Positions 3,325 through 28,880 of a stretch of 38,987 nucleotides of DNA are shown here, in pieces. This stretch comes from Zoogloea sp. Lineage in GTDB: Bacteria; Pseudomonadota; Gammaproteobacteria; Burkholderiales; Rhodocyclaceae. The stretch lies in assembly GCF_030157465.1 (NCBI RefSeq), contig NZ_JAOAUU010000130.1, forward strand, positions 1 to 38,987, written 5' to 3'. Positions within the stretch are counted from its first letter, which is position 1. Each line of letters begins with the position of its first letter. The position numbers and the translations under genes were made by a program. The notes beneath the pieces were generated by a model that was not told the origin of the DNA, made no database searches, and worked only from the letters and a program-made list of their open reading frames with translations.

Positions 3325-3653
3325 GTACCGAATTCCACCCCGTTCTGAATGCCGCCGAACTGCCTGCCGGCGCCAGCAAGGCCGTGCATATCGACGGCCA
3401 CGACATTCTCGTCGGCAACGCCGCCGGCGAGTTCTTTGCCGTGCAGAACCGCTGCACCCACCAGGATTCGCCCCTCGAAGGCGGACGCATCCGCAACGGC
3501 CTCATCGCCTGCCCGCTGCACGGCGTGATGTTCGACGTGCGCACCGGCTGCGGCCGTGGCCAGATGGGCCGCGTGCCCCTGCGCACCTTCGCCCTGCGCG
3601 TGGTGGAAGGCCGCATCGAGGTATCGCTGGCCGCGCCAGTGGCCGCGGCTTGA
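3321..3653 (+). CDS. Rieske [2Fe-2S] ferredoxin
   Basis: A 110-residue Rieske-type ferredoxin, the soluble electron carrier between a reductase and the terminal oxygenase. The cluster ligands are seen as C45-T-H47 and C64-P-L-H67-G, the usual CxH...CxxH pattern. The length and the absence of a signal peptide or membrane segment fit a cytoplasmic oxygenase ferredoxin such as the BphA3/NdoA type. It is translationally coupled (ATGA overlap) to the SnoaL-like gene and lies 24 bp before the intact oxygenase alpha subunit, its presumed partner. No ferredoxin reductase is found in the window, so the reductase is probably encoded elsewhere. Confidence 0.9.
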   Translation: MSTEFHPVLNAAELPAGASKAVHIDGHDILVGNAAGEFFAVQNRCTHQDSPLEGGRIRNGLIACPLHGVMFDVRTGCGRGQMGRVPLRTFALRVVEGRIEVSLAAPVAAA

Positions 3654-3677
3654 ACGAGGACACAGCGAGGAAAAAAC

Positions 3678-5102
3678 ATGAACGACCGTATTTCCATGCC
3701 CCTGATTCCCGGCGACTACGCCGGCCTGCCCCCCGGCGCGGCGCGCTGCCCCGGCCCCAGCGCCCAGGACATCGTGGCCCGGGACGAAAACCCGCCGCCG
3801 CCGGTCCTGCGGGAGTCCCGCTACGAGTTTCTCGGCGACGCGGACATCGACTACCGCCGCTACACCTCCCGCGAGCATTACGAGCAGGAAATGACCCACG
3901 TCTGGGCCAAAACCTGGCAATGGGCCTGCCGCGAAGAACACATTCCCCAGGTGGGCGATTACTACGTGTATGAGGTGGGCCCCCATTCGGTGCTGGTGGT
4001 ACGCACCGAAAGCGGCATCAAGGCCTATTACAACTCGTGCCTGCACCGGGGCACCAAGCTGCGCCCGGAAGAGGGCATGGGCTCGGCCCAGGAACTCCGC
4101 TGCCCCTATCACGGCTGGACCTGGAGCCTCGAAGGGCGCCTCAAAAGCGTGCCCTGCGCGTGGGATTTTCCGCATGTGAAGCCCGAGGCCTACAGCCTGC
4201 CGGAAGTGAAGGTGGGCCTGTGGGGCGGCTTCGTGTTCATCAACCTGGATGAAAACGCCCCGTCGCTGGAGAGCTACCTCGAAGTGCTGCCCGAGCATTT
4301 TCGCGACTGGGATCTAGGCCAGCGTTACACCGAGCTGCACATGGGCAAAGTATTGCCTTGCAACTGGAAGACCGGGCTGGAAGCCTTCATCGAGTCCTAT
4401 CACGTGCTCGAAACCCACCCGCAACTGCTCCACGGCACCGGCGACGCCAACGTGCAGTACGACCTCTACGGCGATCACGTCACCCGCTTCTACGCCGTGG
4501 GCGGGGTGAATAGCCCCCACCTCGACAAACCCCTCGGCGAGCAGGAGCTGGTCAACACCATGCTGATCGGCGACCGCTCGGTGGTCAGCGACGATCTGGT
4601 GGTGGGCGAGGGCGAAACCGCCCGCATCGTGATGGCCCGCTTCCTGCGCAAGATTCTTGGCGAGAAGTACGCCACCGATCTTTCCGGCGTGTCGGATGCC
4701 GAGATGATCGACACCATCGAGTACCACCTCTTTCCGAACATGATCCTGTTCCCTGGCGTATCGCTGCCGATGGTGTATCGCTTCCGCCCGCTGGGCATGG
4801 AGCCGGAGCGCTGCCTGTTCGAGATCCTGTTCTTGCGCCCGGTGCCGGATTCGGGCCAGCAGCCGGATCCGCCCGAGATGGTTCTGGTTGGCGAGGAGGA
4901 GTCCTACTCGGTGGTGCCCGGCCTCGACCCGGTGCTGGCCCGCGTGTATGACCAGGACACCGCCAATCTGCGCTCCCAGCAACTGGGCTTCAAGGCCTCG
5001 AAAAAAGCCGGCCAGACCCTCGGCAACTACCAGGAAGCGCGCATCCGCCACTTCGAGCGGACGGTCGATCGCTACCTGGCCCGCGCCGCGGCGGCGAAGT
5101 AG
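3678..5102 (+). CDS. Rieske aromatic ring-hydroxylating oxygenase alpha subunit
   Basis: A 474-residue terminal oxygenase subunit that would use O2 and electrons from the neighbouring ferredoxin to hydroxylate a ring or aliphatic substrate. The Rieske ligands are C121, H123, C142 and H145 (CLHRG...CPYHG). The catalytic iron motif is E239-x2-H242-x4-H247 (ESYHVLETH). It is a clear paralogue of the damaged gene at 682-1960, sharing the N-terminal GAARCPGPS motif and the C-terminal AGQTLGNYQE-like segment. No classical beta-subunit gene follows; the SnoaL-like proteins are the only NTF2-fold candidates nearby. The purine-rich sequence gaggaaaaaac precedes the ATG. Substrate not assignable. Confidence 0.9.
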   Translation: MNDRISMPLIPGDYAGLPPGAARCPGPSAQDIVARDENPPPPVLRESRYEFLGDADIDYRRYTSREHYEQEMTHVWAKTWQWACREEHIPQVGDYYVYEVGPHSVLVVRTESGIKAYYNSCLHRGTKLRPEEGMGSAQELRCPYHGWTWSLEGRLKSVPCAWDFPHVKPEAYSLPEVKVGLWGGFVFINLDENAPSLESYLEVLPEHFRDWDLGQRYTELHMGKVLPCNWKTGLEAFIESYHVLETHPQLLHGTGDANVQYDLYGDHVTRFYAVGGVNSPHLDKPLGEQELVNTMLIGDRSVVSDDLVVGEGETARIVMARFLRKILGEKYATDLSGVSDAEMIDTIEYHLFPNMILFPGVSLPMVYRFRPLGMEPERCLFEILFLRPVPDSGQQPDPPEMVLVGEEESYSVVPGLDPVLARVYDQDTANLRSQQLGFKASKKAGQTLGNYQEARIRHFERTVDRYLARAAAAK

Positions 5103-10277: not shown

Positions 10278-12515
<2,238 letters not shown>

Positions 12516-20718: not shown

Positions 20719-22836
20719 TCAAAAACTGGCGCGCAAGCTCAGGCGCAGGGTTTGCGGTTCCAGCGGGTGAACCAGCCGGCCGTCGATGCCGCCGCCGCAG
20801 CTGCCCGACAGTGTTTCGTTGCGGGTACAGGCGCCGCCCCAGTACTCGATGTCGTTGGCCTTGCGCTTGAACAGGTTGAGCACGTCCAGCGTCAGCTGAA
20901 GCCTGGGATCGATGCGATAGCCCAGTTTCAGGTTGGTGAGCAGGAACGGGGTGGATTTTTCCTGGCCGGTTTCCTCCAGCGGATAGGCGCCCAGGTAGCG
21001 CAGGCGCACTCCGCCAAACCATTTGCCGCCGGGGTCGAGCGTGCCGCCAAGCGAGGCTGTAAGGGGTATGGCATTGGGCACACGGGTGCCGCCCGTGTCG
21101 GCGTTGGCCTGCTTGAAGCGGGCGTGGGAAAGGGCCACATCCGCGTCGATGATCACGCCATGGGCGGCGGTGATGTAATTGGACCATTCGAGGCCGTGGC
21201 GGCGTGAGGCGCCTTTGGGCTCGGTGACACCTTCGTCGCCGATGAAGACCAGCTCCGAGGCGAGGTCCATCTGCCACACCGACAGGCTGCTGCTCCAGCC
21301 CGGCAGCGGCATGGTGCGCATGCCGATTTCCGACCCTCTGGCCTTGACCAGCAGCGGAACCCGGCTGATCGCGCTGCCATCGACCGGGTTGACGGTGCTG
21401 GTTGCACCGCGCGCATCGTTGCTGTGAAAGCCGTGCCCCCAGTTGGCGTAGAACTCGGTTGCGCCGAGCAGCTGGAAGGGGCCGAGCACGAGGCCGAGCT
21501 TGGGGCTGGTCTGGCCGGCGCGTGTCTTGCCGCCGTTGCCCAGGTTGAATTCGCCGCCGGTGGCCGTAACCCTGGCGTCCACTTCGTCGTGCCGGAGGCC
21601 GACCGTGCTACGCAGCCACGGTTGCCATTCGGTGCGGGCTTCGAGGAACAGGCTGGCCGATGTCTCGGTGATCCTGTCCTGCCGCACCGTGTCCGTGCGC
21701 AGCCTGTCCTCGGTGCGGTACAGGCCGACCGAACGGATGCGGTCCTGGCGCAACTGGATGCCGGCGCTCAGTTCCGAATCCCTGAATGCCGGCCCTAGAA
21801 ACCAGCTGCGGCTGGCCTGGCCGCCCCACACGGTGCGCGCATCCGCCTGTTCGTGCTGGTCACCCTGCGGGCCGTTGATGAAGCCCGAGGGCGCCGAGAA
21901 CAGGTTCAGGCCGTAGTTGATGACGTAAAAGCCGGCCCTGCTGGCGCCGTCCTGGTCGGGGCGAGCCCATTCACCCGACAGGCTGTAACGGTGGGTCTTG
22001 CCGCCGTCCCTGGGGGAGAGCGCGCCGTAGCGGCCGATTTCTCCGCTGTCGATGGCTCGCTCCGGCACATGTTCGGTGGCCGTCCAGCTGGCCGCGTAGG
22101 CCATGGCGGTGAGTGAGAAACCCTTGGCCGCGGTGCCGTCGGAGAGGCGCAGCACGGCGTTGTGCTTCTTCAGGTTTTCCGGCTGCTGCCACGGGCCGTC
22201 GTTGCCGGCGAGTTCAAGCGCGCCGAGCAGTTGCAGGCCGCCACCGACTTCCCGGCTGCCTGCCGCCAGCGCACGGCGGTAGCCGTTCTGGCCGAGGCTG
22301 ATGTCGGCAAAGGGGCTGGCCAGCTGACGTTGATAGTCGATACGCGCTGAGCCGGTAGTTGCAAAATCCCCGTCCTCGGCGGAGTAAACGCCCTTGCGGT
22401 ATTTGAGGCTGCCAATCAGTTCGGGGATCAGGAAGTTCAGATCCATGTAGCCCTGCCCGTGAGCGTGGCTGACCATGTTCACGGGCATTCCCATGACGTG
22501 GGTGGAAAAATCGCTGCCGTGGTCGAGGTTGAAACCGCGCAGGAAATACTGGTTGGCCTTGCCGTCGCCCGAGTGCTGGGTGACCACCATGCCGGGGATG
22601 GTTTCCATGACTTCGGCAGGCCGCAGCAGCGGGCGATTGGCCAGCTGCCTGGCAGTGACCGTGCCTTCGGTGGCGGAATCGGCGACGCCGATCAGATCCT
22701 GGCTGCGGGTGCTGACCGTGACTTCCTGCAGCGTCGGAACGCCTGCGGCGTGGGCGATGCCCGAGAGCGCACTGGCCAGCAGGGCGGCAATGGCGGAAGC
22801 GTTGCCGCGGGAAAGAGCGAGAACGGTGGCGTGCAA
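20719..22836 (-). CDS. TonB-dependent outer membrane receptor
   Basis: About 705 residues: signal peptide (hydrophobic AIAALLASALSGIAHA, cleavage after AHA), plug domain with LQEVTVSTRSQ, VMETIPGMVVTQH and FLRGFNLDHG, then a 22-strand-type barrel ending in the terminal Phe of LRLSLRASF needed for outer membrane assembly. Its role is energy-dependent uptake of a bound metal complex or nutrient. No ATG gives a sensible N-terminus; I chose TTG at 22836, preceded by CGGAGA at a suitable distance. The frame stays open to 23175, but that part reads through repeats. It follows the CobN-like/ExbB/DUF2149 genes in the same direction, suggesting a corrinoid, cobalt or tetrapyrrole ligand. The ligand is inferred from context only. 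Confidence 0.85.
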   Translation of the reverse strand: MHATVLALSRGNASAIAALLASALSGIAHAAGVPTLQEVTVSTRSQDLIGVADSATEGTVTARQLANRPLLRPAEVMETIPGMVVTQHSGDGKANQYFLRGFNLDHGSDFSTHVMGMPVNMVSHAHGQGYMDLNFLIPELIGSLKYRKGVYSAEDGDFATTGSARIDYQRQLASPFADISLGQNGYRRALAAGSREVGGGLQLLGALELAGNDGPWQQPENLKKHNAVLRLSDGTAAKGFSLTAMAYAASWTATEHVPERAIDSGEIGRYGALSPRDGGKTHRYSLSGEWARPDQDGASRAGFYVINYGLNLFSAPSGFINGPQGDQHEQADARTVWGGQASRSWFLGPAFRDSELSAGIQLRQDRIRSVGLYRTEDRLRTDTVRQDRITETSASLFLEARTEWQPWLRSTVGLRHDEVDARVTATGGEFNLGNGGKTRAGQTSPKLGLVLGPFQLLGATEFYANWGHGFHSNDARGATSTVNPVDGSAISRVPLLVKARGSEIGMRTMPLPGWSSSLSVWQMDLASELVFIGDEGVTEPKGASRRHGLEWSNYITAAHGVIIDADVALSHARFKQANADTGGTRVPNAIPLTASLGGTLDPGGKWFGGVRLRYLGAYPLEETGQEKSTPFLLTNLKLGYRIDPRLQLTLDVLNLFKRKANDIEYWGGACTRNETLSGSCGGGIDGRLVHPLEPQTLRLSLRASF

Positions 22837-22984
22837 GGGGATTCTCCGTACATCTAAGTGCTGTGTGTTGATCGGGCAGCGGCGGTCGGCTTTTCGGTTG
22901 GCTCTGCCATCGTTGTCTGTGGATGACGCACCCTGTGTGATGCAGGGGCCGGATGTGTGGGCTGTATGCCGGGGGCTGGATGTA

Positions 22985-23065
22985 GGGGCGACTTCAGTCG
23001 CCCATCCGTGCGTCGAATCACAGGCAAGCCGTTGACCGGAGTCCGCGGGCGACTGAAGTCGCCCC
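22985..23065. repeat. MITE-like repeat, family B, copy 2
   Basis: The two ends are palindromes, ggggcgacttcagtcgccc and gggcgactgaagtcgcccc, and are also inverted copies of each other, around a 40-bp core shared with the copy at 20623-20696. It is the fuller of the two copies, about 81 bp, and non-coding. Confidence 0.75.
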
Positions 23066-23067
23066 TT

Positions 23068-23132
23068 CACGTCGCCCCTGCACGTCGCTCCTGCACGTCG
23101 CCCCTGCACGTCGCTCCTGCACGTCGCTCCTG
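23068..23132. repeat. five tandem copies of a 13-bp repeat
   Basis: The unit cacgtcgcccctg or cacgtcgctcctg is repeated five times without spacers. The unit resembles the end of the adjacent family B palindrome (gtcgcccct), so the array probably arose by slippage at its edge. It lies between DUF2149 and the TonB receptor. Confidence 0.85.
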
Positions 23133-23189
23133 CAAAGGCATACACCTGCAACCGACACAAAGATTCCACAGGCAATGGCGGACACAGCC

Positions 23190-23522
23190 TTACGGTGTGC
23201 GCGCCTTGCCCGGTTCAACCAGGATCAGCTGGCCGGTCTTCGGGTCGCGAAAGACTTCGCCGACCCGATCGAAGCCGGCGCCGGCCTGGCCCATGCCGTC
23301 GGCGGGGCGTTCGATGGACTGGCCCTTGTCCACGGGTTTCGGCGGCGACAGCGCGCCCTGGGTGCTGGCCGCGAGCGCGGCGAGCAGGCCGCAGGCGAAC
23401 ACCAGCATCACGTCCACCAGATTGACCAGGCTGGCGCGGGGGTCTTCGTCCCGGTCGTCGAAACGGGCGTCGAGGCGGGAATACAGGCGCAGGCGCTTGC
23501 GCGGTGGCGGGGCGGATTTCAT
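23190..23522 (-). CDS. DUF2149 membrane protein
   Basis: A 110-residue protein with one membrane segment (LVNLVDVMLVFACGLLAALA, about 32-51) and a C-terminal domain ending in FRDPKTGQLILVE, the signature of DUF2149. An ExbD/TolR-like topology, with a short cytoplasmic N-terminus and a periplasmic tail, makes it a plausible stand-in for ExbD beside an ExbB-like partner. Its start overlaps the ExbB-like stop by 4 bases. The same family occurs with CobN-like and ExbB-like genes in Bacteroidetes hmu loci. Exact function not known. Confidence 0.85.
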   Translation of the reverse strand: MKSAPPPRKRLRLYSRLDARFDDRDEDPRASLVNLVDVMLVFACGLLAALAASTQGALSPPKPVDKGQSIERPADGMGQAGAGFDRVGEVFRDPKTGQLILVEPGKARTP

Positions 23523-23956
23523 TCGTCACCCTCCAGGGCTTCGAGCATTTCTTCGTACCAGCGGCGCCGCAGCTTGCCGACCACGAGGCCACCGATGCCG
23601 GCGACGAGGCCCAGCACGGTGGCGTCGAAGGCGACCGTCACGGCGCTGGCAAGCTCGGACGGATTGCCCTGACCCAAGGCGGCAAGGCCCGGTCCGAGGG
23701 GAATGATGGTGGCCATCAGGCCAAGCATCGGCGGGATGCGGGCGAGCAGGTCGGCACGTTCAAGACGGTGGCGCGCAACGCGCTGGATGAGCTGCAGATC
23801 GCCCGTTGCGGCGAGACGCTTGAGGCCCCAGAAGCGCTCGCCGAATGCCAGGCCGGCTTCGGCCAGGGCAATGGCGCAGGCCATGATGAGTGCGAAAAGA
23901 GCGGGGGTGAGCAGCCAGGTAACGGCCTGGTGCAGCCAGGAGAGCGCGTCGTTCAT
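23519..23956 (-). CDS. MotA/TolQ/ExbB-type proton channel protein
   Basis: A 145-residue inner membrane protein with an N-terminal membrane helix (LLTPALFALIMACAIALAEA) and two more around ARIPPMLGLMATIIPLGPGL and AFDATVLGLVAGIGGLVVG, the core that forms the proton path in ExbB and TolQ. It is shorter than ExbB of E. coli. It is joined by 4-base overlaps to the CobN-like gene upstream and the DUF2149 gene downstream, so the three are translationally coupled. It is expected to use the proton gradient to energise either the TonB receptor or the exported CobN-like protein. Confidence 0.88.
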   Translation of the reverse strand: MNDALSWLHQAVTWLLTPALFALIMACAIALAEAGLAFGERFWGLKRLAATGDLQLIQRVARHRLERADLLARIPPMLGLMATIIPLGPGLAALGQGNPSELASAVTVAFDATVLGLVAGIGGLVVGKLRRRWYEEMLEALEGDE

Positions 23957-26900
23957 CGGGGTTTTACCGGGTTGTTGCGGGTGGAGGAAAAGCGTCGGCC
24001 ACTCCAGGCGAGGCCGAGCAGGAAAATCAGCGGGGCCAGCGTCAGCGCGGCCGGCGGGATGCCTGTCGCGGCGGGCGCCAGGCTGGGCTTGAGTTCGTAG
24101 TAGCGGTCGGGCGCGGGCGGCGGGGTGTCAGCGGGCGCTTCAGCGGGCGTGTCGACTTTGGCGCCGGCCTGCGCCGGGGCGGGGGCCGACGGCGTGCTGC
24201 CCGATGCCGGCGTTATCAAAGGGGAGGCGGCCACCGGTGCCGCCGGTGCCAGGTTCGCCCCTTGGGCGCGGGCGAGGGTGACGCCCAGGGCTTCGGCATC
24301 GGCCGCATCGATCTGCGGTTTGAGCCAGTTCCACATGGGGTGATTGGGCGCTGCGTGACCACTGCCGGGCAGGCCGTTCCTGGCCACCAGCCGGGCCAGC
24401 TCGCCCCCCATCTGGCGGATGGTGGCTTCGTCGGCTTTCCAGAAACCCTTTTCGGCGGCGACCATGAAGATGGCCAGCATGTGGGCCTTCACGTGGGCGT
24501 TCTGGCCTTGCTCGAGAAAGCGCGGCAGACCGAGCTTCTGCTTGTCGTCGAAGTAGGTTTCCTTGACCTCGTCCCAGGCCCATTGCTTGATCAGGTCGGG
24601 TCGGGTGACCTGCCAGCCCCACAGGTTTTCGAGAAACTCCTGGCCCATCGTGCGGGCGCCGGCGTAGCCGTGCTTCATCAGCGGCTTGAGCCAGGCCGGG
24701 TTGAGGTAGCGGCCGCGGAGTTCGGACAGCAGCGCGGTGGCCAGCGGCTCGACTTCCGGGTGCGCCGCATCGGCGTGCTGCAGGATCAAGGCTTCCGGCG
24801 GCCGTCCGGTGAGGGTTTCGATGCCCACCGACATGCCGCCGAGATAGTCGAAGGCGTCGTTGTTGTCGAGCAGGCCATAGAGGTTGCTGGCCCGCCCGTG
24901 ATAGCTGCGGGTGACGCCGGCCAGGGCTGTCTCGAAGGCCTGATGCGCCGCGTCGCCGCTGGAGTCGAGGCCGTAGGCGTGGCCCATGCGCTTGAGGTAG
25001 ATGCGGCCGAGTTCGTCACGCTCTTTCCACGCGCCGGATCTTTCGGCAAGGCGATTGACGCCGGCGCTGTAGGCGCCCGGTGGGTCACCGAAGATGCGCG
25101 TTGCCGCCGCGCGCCCGGCTTCGGGCAGGCTGAGGCCGGCCTTGGCAAGGATGTCGATGCGCTTCAGCCAGGCCGCGGCAACGAGGTTGTCGGCGAGGGG
25201 CTGACGGCCGTGCTCGATGCCCTTGCCGGCCGGGGCGAGGGCGGCGGCGAGCGCGTCTTTCAGCTCCGGGCGGATGTCGAGCAGCAGGTCGGCGGAGGCG
25301 GCAAGGGCCAGCAGGCCGGCCCGGTCCACCTGCCGGAGCAGGTTGGGGTAAAGGTCGCGGAACAGGCCCGAGGTGGTGACGATCACGTCACGCCGGGGGC
25401 GGCCAGGCAGCAGGCGCACGTCGGTGACGATGCCGCGGGCGTTCCACACCGGTTCGGTGCCCAGCAGCGAGAGGCAGAAGGCGACCATCGCGCCTTCGTC
25501 GCGCACCGCGTCGGAGGCCCACAGGATCACCGCGTCGCTGTCGACGCCGGCGTTTTTCTTGCGCGGGCGGGCCGTGGCCTTGTCGGCCAGTGTCGCCCCG
25601 AGGGCATAGCCGAGGCGGGTGGGCAGCAGGTCGCCGTCCACCGCGTGAAAGTTGCGTCCGGTGGGCAGGGCTTCGGGTGAACGCAGCGGATCGTTACCTT
25701 TGCCCGGCGCCACGAAGCGCCCGGCAAGGCCGGCCAGCAGGCCTTCCATTTCGAGGCGGGGCGAGATCGCCAGCTTTTCGGCGATGGCCGCATCAAAGCC
25801 GCCGGCCACCTGGCTCATGGAGTCGGCCATCAGCTTGAGGGATTCGGCGCTCCAGTCCTGCCCGAAGACATGCAGGCCGTGGGGCATGAACTTCTCTTGC
25901 AGCTTGGTGAGGTAGTGGCCGATCTCGTGGGCGAGGAGGTCGTCGTCGGCGTCCTCGAAACCAATGCCGCGGACCTCGAGCACGTCGGCCATCGAGGCTT
26001 CCAGCTCGGCCTTCAGGTTGAGCGCGATGACTTGCGTGCGCATGGTTTTGGCGGCCTGGGCCTTGAGGCTTTCGCTGTTGGCCGCTTCAAAGCTTTCCAC
26101 AACCTGACGCAATTCCAGCAGCTTGTCGTAGAGGGGCGTGGCAGACAGTGGCGGGGTGAGGTGATCGACGATCACGGCGAGCCCCCGGCGCTTGGCCTGA
26201 ATGCCTTCGCCTACGCCGTCCACGATGTAGGGGTAGACGCCGGGCAGGTCGGCGGCAATCAGGCTGGGGTAGTCGTCGGCAGTGAGGCCGACGGCTTTGC
26301 CGGGCAGGAATTCGTAGGTGGAATGGCGGCCCAGATGCACCACGGCGTCGGCGCGGAAGCGGTCGCGGATCCAGTGATAGAAGGCCAGATATTGATGCGG
26401 TGGCGCCACGCTGGTGTTGGCGTGCAGCAGTTCTTCATCCACCTCCCAGCCCCGTGGTGGCTGGGGGCCGACGAAGACCTTGCCAAAGACGAGGCCCGGC
26501 ACCAGCAGCTTGCCGTCGGCCACCATCACCTTGCCCGGGGTTTGTCCCCAGCCCCGCAGGCCCTCGACGCCGTGGCCGGCGAGGCGCCAGGCCAGGGACG
26601 ACAGGCTGGTGCAGCGACGCCGGGGCTGATCCGCCAGGCAGTCCCGGTAGCCGGCTTCCAGCGCCTTCAAGCCTGTGATGGTTTCCTGGCGCTTCGGGTG
26701 GTCGGCACCTTCGGCCAGGTGGTGGAGTTCCTTCATGACCGATTCGACCCGCTTGCGGCCGACGCTGCGCTCCCCGATCTGCTCGGCTTCCAGCACTTCG
26801 GCGTGCAGCCGGCCCAGGGGGCCGGACACCATCTCGCCCTGCACCCGCTCGGGCAGGGCGGCAAACCAGCGGCGGTAGTCGGCGGCGCTGACGCTGTTCA

Positions 26901-28338
26901 CGTCCAGCGCCAGCTCATGCAGGGCGGTTTTGTCTTCCGGCAGGTTCACGCCCCGCGCCATGATCCGGTCGAGCAGGGCTTCCGGCGAAGCCGGCAGTTC
27001 GCCGGTGTCGTAGCCTTCCGCCTTGAGACGCTGCAGCACGCCGAACAGGGACGCGGGCACGTCCAGGTTGTCGGCGCCGATGTTCTGCCGGCCCGGCGGG
27101 TGGTTGTAGTAGATGATCGCCAGCCGCTTGTCGGCATTGGCTTTGGCCCGCAAGGCCTGCCAGCGGGCGGCGCGGGCCACGAGGCGCTGGATTTCGACCC
27201 CGATGGCCTCGGTGCGGCGCAGCTCGATGCCGGTAAGAGGGTCAATGCGACTGGCGCCGACGGCCGACACGACGATGGGCTGGCCGATGCCCTGGAGTTC
27301 CGGCAGGGCGACCCGGTACTGCACCGAATCCACCGGGAGCCCTTCCGGCGACAGGCGCCATTGGGTCGCGCTGCGGTCGGTCAGGCGGATGGCCTTGAGG
27401 ATGGGGATGTCCAGCTTCTTGAACGCCGCGGTGACGGCCTCGCGGTTTTCGGCCGCGCCGACGACGAAATCCTGCACCACCACCAGCGCGGCCGGCCTGG
27501 CCGGGGCAAGCAGTTCGGGCAGACGCTCGATGGCCTCCCGCGAGACGCTGCCCCAGCGGGTCAGCACTTCGGCGCAAGGCAGGCCCTGGCGGCGGGATTC
27601 ACCACAGATCGCGGCGGCGGTGGCAGATTCGGTGTTGGACAGGTCGAGCACGGCCAGGGCCGGGCCAGCGGGCAGCAGACGGGCATTCCACGCGGCCTCG
27701 TCGAGACGTTCGGTGCCATCGACCCGCAGGCGCAGGACGCTCTCCCGCTGCGCCGGGGGCAGCGGCTTGCCGTCGAGCAGGTGGCCGAACAGGCGCGCCA
27801 CGTTGTTGGCGCCGTCCGCCTGCCACACCCGGCGCGCGGCGAGCCACGCGGATGCGGCCGGGTGCCTTGCGGCGGCTTCGAGGGCGTCGGCCGGGGGCTG
27901 TTCGGCTGTCAGCTGGCGCAGGGTTTCGGCGGGAAAGCCCTCGAGCCGGCCCAGCCGGCTGCGGCTTTGCAGGTTGAGGCGCTGTTCGCCGTTCAGGGCC
28001 AGCACCGTGGCGGCGCGACTGGCGGGAAGGGTGTTGATCAGCCGGCGCGCCGGGTCGCCGAAGGCCGAGGCGATGAACACCGAGTCGGCATCGAGCCACT
28101 GGCGAAGCTGTGCATCGCTGGCCGCCATAATCTGGTTGGGCGTGCGCAGGACGATGCGGTCGCGGGGATGGCTGGCCAGATGCTGACGTGCCGCTTCGAC
28201 GGCAGCGGGAGCGGCACGGTCGGTCATGACACCGAAGAGTGTCGCCGCGCGGGCCGGCACGCTGCCCAGCAGTGCAAACGCTACGAGCAGCCCTGCGCAA
28301 AGGACTGCGTTGCGACCCGTTGATTCCTGTCCTGTCAT
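23953..28338 (-). CDS. exported, membrane-anchored CobN-like chelatase subunit
   Basis: A 1461-residue protein of the CobN/BchH/HmuS family (large subunits of cobalt and magnesium chelatases; HmuS of Bacteroidetes is linked to removing iron from haem). Family motifs are clear: NHPPGRQNIGADNLDVPASL, HLGRHSTYEFLPGKAVGL, YPYIVDGVGEGIQAKRRG and YGGRLDN-like LLDNNDAFDYLGG. Unusually for a biosynthetic CobN, it has a signal peptide (VLCAGLLVAFALLGSVPARA) and a C-terminal membrane helix after a Pro/Ala-rich linker, so the bulk should sit in the periplasm. ATG 28338 has GGAGG upstream; the frame extends to 28572, but that part is the riboswitch. No CobS or CobT gene is present. Confidence 0.9.
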   Translation of the reverse strand: MTGQESTGRNAVLCAGLLVAFALLGSVPARAATLFGVMTDRAAPAAVEAARQHLASHPRDRIVLRTPNQIMAASDAQLRQWLDADSVFIASAFGDPARRLINTLPASRAATVLALNGEQRLNLQSRSRLGRLEGFPAETLRQLTAEQPPADALEAAARHPAASAWLAARRVWQADGANNVARLFGHLLDGKPLPPAQRESVLRLRVDGTERLDEAAWNARLLPAGPALAVLDLSNTESATAAAICGESRRQGLPCAEVLTRWGSVSREAIERLPELLAPARPAALVVVQDFVVGAAENREAVTAAFKKLDIPILKAIRLTDRSATQWRLSPEGLPVDSVQYRVALPELQGIGQPIVVSAVGASRIDPLTGIELRRTEAIGVEIQRLVARAARWQALRAKANADKRLAIIYYNHPPGRQNIGADNLDVPASLFGVLQRLKAEGYDTGELPASPEALLDRIMARGVNLPEDKTALHELALDVNSVSAADYRRWFAALPERVQGEMVSGPLGRLHAEVLEAEQIGERSVGRKRVESVMKELHHLAEGADHPKRQETITGLKALEAGYRDCLADQPRRRCTSLSSLAWRLAGHGVEGLRGWGQTPGKVMVADGKLLVPGLVFGKVFVGPQPPRGWEVDEELLHANTSVAPPHQYLAFYHWIRDRFRADAVVHLGRHSTYEFLPGKAVGLTADDYPSLIAADLPGVYPYIVDGVGEGIQAKRRGLAVIVDHLTPPLSATPLYDKLLELRQVVESFEAANSESLKAQAAKTMRTQVIALNLKAELEASMADVLEVRGIGFEDADDDLLAHEIGHYLTKLQEKFMPHGLHVFGQDWSAESLKLMADSMSQVAGGFDAAIAEKLAISPRLEMEGLLAGLAGRFVAPGKGNDPLRSPEALPTGRNFHAVDGDLLPTRLGYALGATLADKATARPRKKNAGVDSDAVILWASDAVRDEGAMVAFCLSLLGTEPVWNARGIVTDVRLLPGRPRRDVIVTTSGLFRDLYPNLLRQVDRAGLLALAASADLLLDIRPELKDALAAALAPAGKGIEHGRQPLADNLVAAAWLKRIDILAKAGLSLPEAGRAAATRIFGDPPGAYSAGVNRLAERSGAWKERDELGRIYLKRMGHAYGLDSSGDAAHQAFETALAGVTRSYHGRASNLYGLLDNNDAFDYLGGMSVGIETLTGRPPEALILQHADAAHPEVEPLATALLSELRGRYLNPAWLKPLMKHGYAGARTMGQEFLENLWGWQVTRPDLIKQWAWDEVKETYFDDKQKLGLPRFLEQGQNAHVKAHMLAIFMVAAEKGFWKADEATIRQMGGELARLVARNGLPGSGHAAPNHPMWNWLKPQIDAADAEALGVTLARAQGANLAPAAPVAASPLITPASGSTPSAPAPAQAGAKVDTPAEAPADTPPPAPDRYYELKPSLAPAATGIPPAALTLAPLIFLLGLAWSGRRFSSTRNNPVKPR

Positions 28339-28507
28339 TCTGCCTCCACATGCGGGAACATCGGCCGTGGCGCCAGGGCAGGGGGACAAGACGAAACGAA
28401 AGGGCATGCCGGACTTCAGGGGCCCCGGCAGGACGGCGGACAGAAGTCGGACGTTTTCGCTCGCCACGCCCACACCCCGGGGCACAGCCAAACTCATGTC
28501 CTCGGGC

Positions 28508-28696
28508 CGGTCTTCTGGCTCGCCGTCGTTCTTCCCTATCCGCCTTCCCGGGCAAAAATGGCCCAGTGGCATGCATGGATGGAGTCGTCAGGCTTACAGC
28601 AGCGGGGGCTGCGCCGGAATGGTCGGAGAGAGACAACTCGCCGAGGTCACCGGACTTCCCGTTTAGCCCTTCCGCGAAAGCGGATCGGGCACCCGG
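28508..28696 (-). promoter_or_regulatory. cobalamin riboswitch
   Basis: Read on the minus strand, the conserved blocks occur in the right order: gggtgccc (28694-28687), gggaagtccggtg (28660-28648), the core gcagcccccgctgctgta (28612-28595), gccactg (28570-28564), gggaaggcg (28549-28541) and gccagaagaccggcc (28519 to about 28505). This is the AdoCbl-type pattern with the B12 box. The aptamer ends about 165 nt before the CobN-like start, leaving room for an expression platform. It should reduce expression of the downstream operon when cobalamin is plentiful. Confidence 0.9.
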
Positions 28697-28880
28697 AGGA
28701 TCAAGGGCGCGAGGTTACGGGGAAACGGGTGACGACGGCAAGTCGTGGTGAGATCGAGCTGCCCGCTTTCGCCGTCTGGCGCGTGATTGGAGCGGCTCGA
28801 ACACTCGACCTTTGGATAGAGGCAACAAAACCCGGGCAGGGGAATGCTTGGCTTTTTTGCACGAGCGGAGTAGGCTTCAA

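Follow-up and report, generated by a model that had tools for sequence, protein, structure and literature searches.

The window analysed in the present work, a stretch of 38,987 nucleotides (nt) from Zoogloea sp. (contig NZ_JAOAUU010000130.1), harbors on its minus strand a cobalamin riboswitch followed by four genes, which code for a CobN-like protein of the BtuS type, an ExbB-like proton-channel protein, a DUF2149 protein, and a TonB-dependent receptor. A minus-strand set of this kind, closed by the receptor, had been outlined in a preliminary description of this DNA, and Pfam confirmed all four genes. The riboswitch at its head, placed at 28508-28696 in the same description, was retrieved by the covariance search at 28488..28711 (minus strand); the RF00174 aptamer scored 104.3 bits (E-value 3e-25; gathering score 31.5) along the full model (positions 1-189), and no other Rfam match in the window exceeds its gathering score. 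About 150 nt separate the 3' end of the aptamer from the ATG of the cobN-like gene, and the 166 nt located 3' of the aptamer do not fold more stably than their shuffles (z -0.32).

The scan of 84,980 species genomes for relatives yielded 293, the best 80 of which were kept; another 12 came from a class sample (369 genomes), bringing the loci of the window's clade to 92. A riboswitch model made from 14 sequences, to which nine of the 92 loci contributed, was then run over all the loci. Of the 92 loci, 84 carry a same-strand cobalamin riboswitch in the 9.5 kilobases (kb) preceding the CobN-like gene (75 out of 83 when the nine model-supplying loci are left out), and in 54 of them it is no more than 600 nt away from where the longest cobN-like open reading frame (ORF) starts; at least one riboswitch-bearing locus occurs in 38 of 42 groups, defined at the genus level or more coarsely where unnamed. 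These data support the control of the operon by B12, and the association with B12 regulation proved to be conserved among relatives. The eight sister-clade loci, some of which are short, did not return any cobalamin riboswitch, and a search of 15 additional loci, which contain other CobN-like genes, returned two matches, one of a BtuS gene and one of a canonical CobN, ten of these loci having a flank of only about 1.5 kb. Moreover, wherever the contig reaches, the CobN-like gene is followed by the ExbB gene (89 loci out of 89) and by the DUF2149 gene (88 out of 88).

The CobN-like protein (23953..28338, minus strand) is 1461 residues long and matches CobN-Mg_chel (PF02514) with an E-value of 7.7e-244; it is 97% identical to its counterpart in Zoogloea oleivorans. 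Its reading frame is open from 23953 to 28572, the ATG at 28338 behind a GGAGG being the likely start, as is also inferred from the hydrophobic N-terminus. According to simple hydropathy, hydrophobic stretches lie at residues 11-29 and 1426-1444, and among the 88 full-length clade sequences the N-terminal one occurs in 82, the C-terminal one in 82, and both in 76. The predicted export and anchoring of the protein, which had been described as bearing a signal peptide and a C-terminal membrane helix, are therefore backed by its hydrophobic ends. It represents the only CobN-family gene of its genome (4.7 Mb), where it was picked up as three stretches of one frame. Against the biosynthetic CobN equivalog (TIGR02257) it scored 517.5 bits, under the cut-off of 822.05, and whole-profile scores place the clade at much the same distance from HmuS (503 bits), CobN (482), and ChlH (462).

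Since the locus had been likened to the hmu loci, the active-site motifs deserve closer attention; they were counted with no pattern preselection in the 92 clade ORFs. According to PMC12583661, HmuS carries two motifs, HFG(T/A)HG with the catalytic His-538 and LSLDHxxEFMGG with His-1209 and Glu-1212, a Met-rich insertion in domain IV, and the haem ligands Met-79 and His-254 at the head/neck. The motifs of the window protein are HLGRHSTYEF and LDNNDAFDYLGG; the equivalents are HFGTHGSLEF and SLDHVYEFMGG in HmuS, and HMGKHGNLEW and DSDDYYQFEGG in CobN. GRHS is present in 91 of the 92 ORFs (L043 ends before the motif) and DN[ND]DxFDYxGG in 89, two being cut off and L049 deviating, while Arg671, His672, Ser673, Asp1161, Asp1164, Cys245, and Cys255 are invariant in all the full-length sequences; the invariant cysteine pair is consistent with an exported protein. 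The residue before the aligned His is Arg671 in the clade, Lys in CobN, and Thr in both HmuS and ChlH; Asp1161 aligns with an Asp in CobN and with His-1209 in HmuS, whose Glu-1212 place is occupied by Asp1164. The comparison with HmuS held in part: the catalytic His is kept, whereas the HmuS motifs are absent and a CobN-like context is found instead, so that, as far as the aligned residues go, the active-site motifs of the clade resemble those of CobN.

The region corresponding to the Met-rich insertion spans residues 636-927 in HmuS and 768-856 in the window protein, a comparison of length made on the window protein only; the profile alignment of the latter to 9d26 begins at residue 283 and does not extend to Met-79 and His-254. 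A tree of 46 sequences, built with a quick method on partial references and having a long ChlH branch, grouped the 27 clade rows into one branch with a Shimodaira-Hasegawa-like approximate likelihood ratio test (SH-aLRT) value of 100; HmuS (9d26) joined L138 of Pseudomaricurvus, CobN (9uk9) joined the Azotobacter sequence L131, and a third group was also separate from the clade. The motifs, the short Met-rich insertion region, and the tree position speak against the protein being an HmuS.

Further CobN-like genes (L132-L137, L139, L140, L147, L149-L151; L031-L038) were also observed, several of them near receptor, ExbB, or DUF2149 genes; their second motif often reads (T/D)DPFQYLGG or DHPFEYLGG, and no cobalamin riboswitch of their own was found.

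The ExbB-like protein (23519..23956, minus strand; 145 residues) matches PF01618 with an E-value of 4.8e-8 and 33.3 bits (cut-off 22.9), and the DUF2149 protein (23190..23522, minus strand; 110 residues), with one predicted membrane helix and Asp37 in the NLVDVMLVF stretch, matches PF09919 with an E-value of 2.8e-9 and 37.6 bits (cut-off 27.1). ATGA overlaps of four bases join the cobN-like gene to the exbB-like one and the latter to the DUF2149 gene, as noticed in the preliminary description. The AlphaFold model of the ExbB-like protein has a predicted local distance difference test (pLDDT) value of 87, and ExbB or TolQ chains fill its first 43 Foldseek rows, with a best probability near 1 and an E-value of 0.016. 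Concerning DUF2149, Asp37 is invariant in the 54 aligned sequences (of 88), and the LVDVMLV stretch with its membrane Asp resembles ExbD-type proteins of the same genome; PF09919 matches all 54 members scanned and the ExbD/TolR models match none of them, while the profile search of the PDB returned no match for this protein. In the class sample, DUF2149 occurs in 21 of the 369 genomes, that is, 12 of the window's clade, eight of the sister clade, and G294, where a TolR-like protein is weakly matched. A proton-motive-force drive of the CobN-like machine is plausible.

The TonB-dependent receptor (20719..22836, minus strand; PF00593/PF07715) is not BtuB-like. Its ORF extends over 20719-23175, the TTG at 22836 being probably the true start; it scored 67.8 bits against TIGR01783, under the cut-off of 223.5, and the PDB sequence search did not retrieve any match at an E-value of 0.001. 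The receptor gene does not overlap the DUF2149 gene: the gap of about 350 nt holds a repeat array (22984..23133, minus strand), read from the sequence as units of GCAGGRGCGACGT plus an inverted pair of GGGGCGACTTCAGTCGCCC, and the corresponding gap in the close relative L055 is about 60 nt. No riboswitch was detected before the window receptor (best score of 6.1 bits in 22600-23300); the receptor gene of Z. oleivorans has a cobalamin riboswitch of its own (L051:14269-14419). Among the 92 loci, CobA-like genes were found in the same locus in 33, BtuB-like ones in 28, a receptor of the window type in 12, and any of the three in 42, operon membership not being always shown. In L046, two cobalamin riboswitches in tandem are followed by a small hydrophobic ORF lacking any Pfam match (3612-4184), which stands between the BtuB-like and the BtuS genes; in L040, a BtuS-ExbB-DUF2149 set devoid of a cobalamin riboswitch is immediately followed by a receptor-like ORF with a thiamine pyrophosphate riboswitch (10346-10476) ahead of it.

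The window's genome harbors four cobalamin riboswitches, including the one described above. One of the others leads an operon with CbiX-, CbiC-, CbiD-, and CobM-type genes (CbiD and CobM above their cut-offs, the CbiX-type and CbiC-type matches below theirs), and the remaining two lead receptor genes, the second of which encodes a protein with 453.9 bits to the B12 receptor model, below its cut-off of 599.7, and is followed by BtuC-type and CobA genes. Since the genome has its own CbiX/CbiD-type operon, the host's pathway does not require the window CobN-like gene for its chelatase step. This separate riboswitch-led operon disfavors a biosynthetic role for the gene, and so does CobS (TIGR01650), which, in agreement with the preliminary description, gave no match in this genome; CobT was not searched for. 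The protein encoded by L008:9213-9942 (minus strand), the first gene after the riboswitch of the de novo B12 operon, is of a membrane type and possibly a cobalt transporter; it did not match any Pfam or NCBIfam model at an E-value of 0.001 in the stretch tested.

The gene content of the hosts was checked in 62 genomes, 12 from the class sample and 50 of the 80 named relatives. A protein above the TIGR02257 cut-off is present in one of them, CobS above its cut-off (558.55) in none, and CobJ/CbiH above the cut-off in 12. The other 50, referred to as ring-less, seem to lack any known route to the corrin ring, with the reservation that draft genomes may have gaps. A CobB-type match was found in 55 of the 62 hosts (31 above the TIGR00379 cut-off, the rest with 166-261 bits) and in 43 of the 50 ring-less ones; CobB and BtuS are at most 10 kb apart in 23 of the 62 genomes, and the NF002204 cut-off is exceeded by all three CobB proteins tested, which come from ring-less hosts (L042, L046, and L049). 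In the class sample, the 171 CobB matches out of 369 genomes mix two subfamilies, which were split by hand on the E-value (B12-type from about 1e-30 to 1e-100, or as a second match); the stronger group is best matched by CfbB in three out of three cases tested and the weaker one by CobB in five out of five. With this split, the B12-type CobB occurs in five of eight ring-less genomes with BtuS versus at most 22 of 320 without it, the latter figure being read from a table that may include fragments (Fisher p of about 1e-4, ignoring relatedness). CobB being, by its family name, the cobyrinic/hydrogenobyrinic acid a,c-diamide synthase, the hosts look like early-corrinoid salvagers, and its retention in most ring-less hosts points in the same direction.

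Taken together, these observations lead us to favor, tentatively, the idea that the operon encodes a periplasmic, proton-motive-force-coupled machine for corrinoid processing, which would most likely metallate scavenged corrins. The machine would sit at the inner membrane and be produced under adenosylcobalamin shortage. A corrinoid would reach the periplasm via the B12-regulated TonB-dependent receptor and be bound by the exported, membrane-anchored BtuS-type protein in its CobN-type active site; ExbB and DUF2149 would form a small proton channel acting on BtuS, in the role that the CobS/CobT ATPase has for the cytoplasmic CobN. The reaction may be cobalt insertion (metallation or re-metallation) into scavenged corrins that are incompletely finished or metal-free, which would then be imported and finished by CobA, CobB, and CobQ. 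The single parts of this scheme do not stand equally firm. The substrate is very probably a corrinoid, and the choice of a corrinoid over a haem role in the preliminary description is supported. That the ExbB-DUF2149 pair acts, in a proton-driven manner, on BtuS itself seems to us an evenly balanced matter, and cobalt insertion as the reaction is possible but somewhat doubtful. Lastly, a motor of ExbB and DUF2149 that replaces an AAA+ ATPase (CobST or ChlID) and drives the exported CobN-like protein to insert cobalt into environmental metal-free corrins is, in this complete form, unlikely.

Several data weigh against this proposal. For the habitat of these hosts, free corrins lacking a metal are not documented here, and HmuS, the nearest studied relative, removes a metal. 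The 12 hosts possessing CobJ/CbiH include that of the window, a CobB-type match is missing from seven of the 50 ring-less hosts, and some hosts are drafts or metagenome-assembled genomes, where absences may be gaps. CobS-like proteins with 490-550 bits occur in six of the 62 hosts, and a CobS match at an E-value of 0.001 or better in 28. As for the regulation, L039, L040, and L115 lack a riboswitch despite 4.9-8.9 kb of upstream flank, L118 and L129 have only a divergent one, and none was found in L043, L097, and L120, where the 5' flank is shorter than 1.2 kb. The alignment of DUF2149 with ExbD/TolR by hhalign is weak (E-value 0.0016, probability 15.8%, 22 columns, with the membrane Asp aligned), and a fold search with a low-confidence model (pLDDT 69, predicted template modelling score 0.28) gave no match. 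Finally, L041:15685-16491 and L048:6556-7563 are TonB genes located beside BtuB-like genes in BtuS loci.

The latter arrangement fits a different explanation, in which ExbB-DUF2149 serves uptake, energising the receptor through TonB, and BtuS is a periplasmic relay to BtuF/BtuCD that binds corrinoids or strips their ligands (by reduction or decyanation) with no change of the metal. BtuC-type and receptor genes are often found in the same locus as BtuS, HmuU/HmuV are read in PMC10100974 as ExbB/ExbD working with TonB, and HmuS itself is reported in PMC12583661 to bind haem outside the catalytic cleft and to act on reduced haem. However, the Pfam family search in 26 genomes revealed, among the matches listed, a TonB gene within 10 kb of BtuS in two genomes and TonB elsewhere in all 26, while BtuS is followed by both ExbB and DUF2149 at all the loci that could be assessed, and BtuS retains the catalytic His and the cleft motifs. 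Moreover, 14 control genomes, including archaea, were checked for DUF2149, MotA_ExbB, and CobN, and DUF2149 was found only in Methanosarcina acetivorans, which also matches the other two families (a co-occurrence at the level of the genome); the other two archaeal controls with CobN match neither DUF2149 nor MotA_ExbB. M. acetivorans is an archaeon without an outer membrane, and TonB-driven uptake would thus be of no use there. On balance, we regard a relay without metal change as possible, but rather doubtful.

The removal of the metal, which the preliminary description had considered, fares worse. If BtuS, in the periplasm, stripped corrinoids or other tetrapyrroles of their cobalt to supply B12 synthesis, it would act as HmuS, a demonstrated de-chelatase removing iron from haem (PMC12583661), and the CbiX/CbiC/CbiD/CobM-type operon of the window's genome, which in three Zoogloea relatives (L052, L054, and L056) stands directly after the BtuS set, might use the product. 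Yet the 50 hosts without CobJ/CbiH have no known use of free cobalt for B12, the destruction of corrinoids during a B12 shortage would harm an auxotroph, the HmuS motifs are absent, and, according to PMC6771967, corrins resist the removal of cobalt unless they are destroyed; we consider this scenario improbable. The de-chelation of haem by an hmu system that happens to be controlled by B12 can be rejected as highly improbable on motifs, tree, and regulation: the gene set does resemble hmu minus HmuY and HmuT, and the receptor is weakly similar to haem receptors (TIGR01785, 30 bits, cut-off 316.85), but the HmuS motifs are missing, the Met-rich insertion region is short, the clade is separate, the hmu operons are reported as iron-regulated (PMC10434189), and the gammaproteobacterium Pseudomaricurvus alkylphenolicus has both an HmuS-motif gene without a riboswitch (L148:10036-14796, motifs read as L138) and a riboswitch-led BtuS operon (L100). 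In this organism, the L148 gene adjoins receptor-like and ExbB genes and represents a natural comparison pair with L100.

If the metallation of scavenged corrins were correct, B12 auxotrophs endowed with CobA, CobB, and CobQ would finish outside the cytoplasm the cobalt-free B12 skeleton of other organisms; some purple sulfur bacteria are reported in PMC6771967 to make cobalt-free corrinoids when cobalt is lacking. The pairing of a CobB-type amidase with a periplasmic chelatase-like protein in many ring-less bacteria suggests that B12 precursors are exchanged at a level not described so far. The GRHS and DNND signature separates the B12-linked CobN-like proteins from the HmuS haem de-chelatases, which the hmu annotations in PMC10434189 still name as cobaltochelatase subunit CobN. 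ExbB-type proton motors serving chelatase-fold enzymes would be a testable case, bearing also on HmuS, whose partners are read in PMC10100974 as TonB drivers.

In the literature searched, mostly at the level of titles and abstracts and with subscription papers outside its scope, no report of a BtuS-ExbB-DUF2149 set in Proteobacteria was found, and the locus can be compared with the following known systems. It shares with HmuS an exported chelatase-fold protein with the catalytic His, the ExbB-like (HmuU) and DUF2149 (HmuV) partners, and a TonB receptor; the order given in PMC10434189 for the iron-regulated hmuYRSTUV of P. gingivalis (HmuY, receptor, CobN, hypothetical, MotA/TolQ/ExbB, and DUF2149 last) agrees with the partners recognised in the preliminary description. 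It differs from hmu in the B12 riboswitch in place of iron control, in the motifs (GRHSTYEF and DNNDAFDY versus GTHGSLEF and SLDHVYEF), in the length of the Met-rich region, in the separate clade, and in being a four-gene operon, where no further long ORF was found (HmuY/HmuT models were not searched). With the biosynthetic CobN, which binds hydrogenobyrinic acid a,c-diamide and requires CobS, CobT, and ATP (PMC7689651), it has in common the basic residue before the catalytic His, the Asp in the second motif, and the IV..GEG.QAKRR..AV..DHLTPPL stretch, whereas the predicted export, the lack of CobS above the cut-off in the 62 hosts, the equivalog score under the cut-off, and the position in the tree set it apart. 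Compared with the ExbB-ExbD, TolQ-TolR, and MotA-MotB motors, the ExbB-like fold and the membrane Asp of DUF2149 are alike, but the constant partner here is of the chelatase fold rather than TonB, TolA, or a flagellar rotor. The BtuS family, credited to Rodionov et al. 2003 in PMC6460266, where BtuS1 and BtuS2 of B. fragilis are described, and with two members in Methanosarcina barkeri (PMC10846266), is likewise CobN-related (PF02514) and predicted to be exported and membrane-anchored; the proteins considered here, likened to it by description, form a clade of mostly proteobacterial members that has a signature of its own. PMC10100974 mentions hmu-like operons with a cobalamin riboswitch and a divergent HmuY/HmuR or no HmuY, perhaps involved in cobalamin metabolism, B. 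fragilis NCTC 9343 being an example; the window operon is the proteobacterial counterpart of these riboswitch-led operons of Bacteroides.

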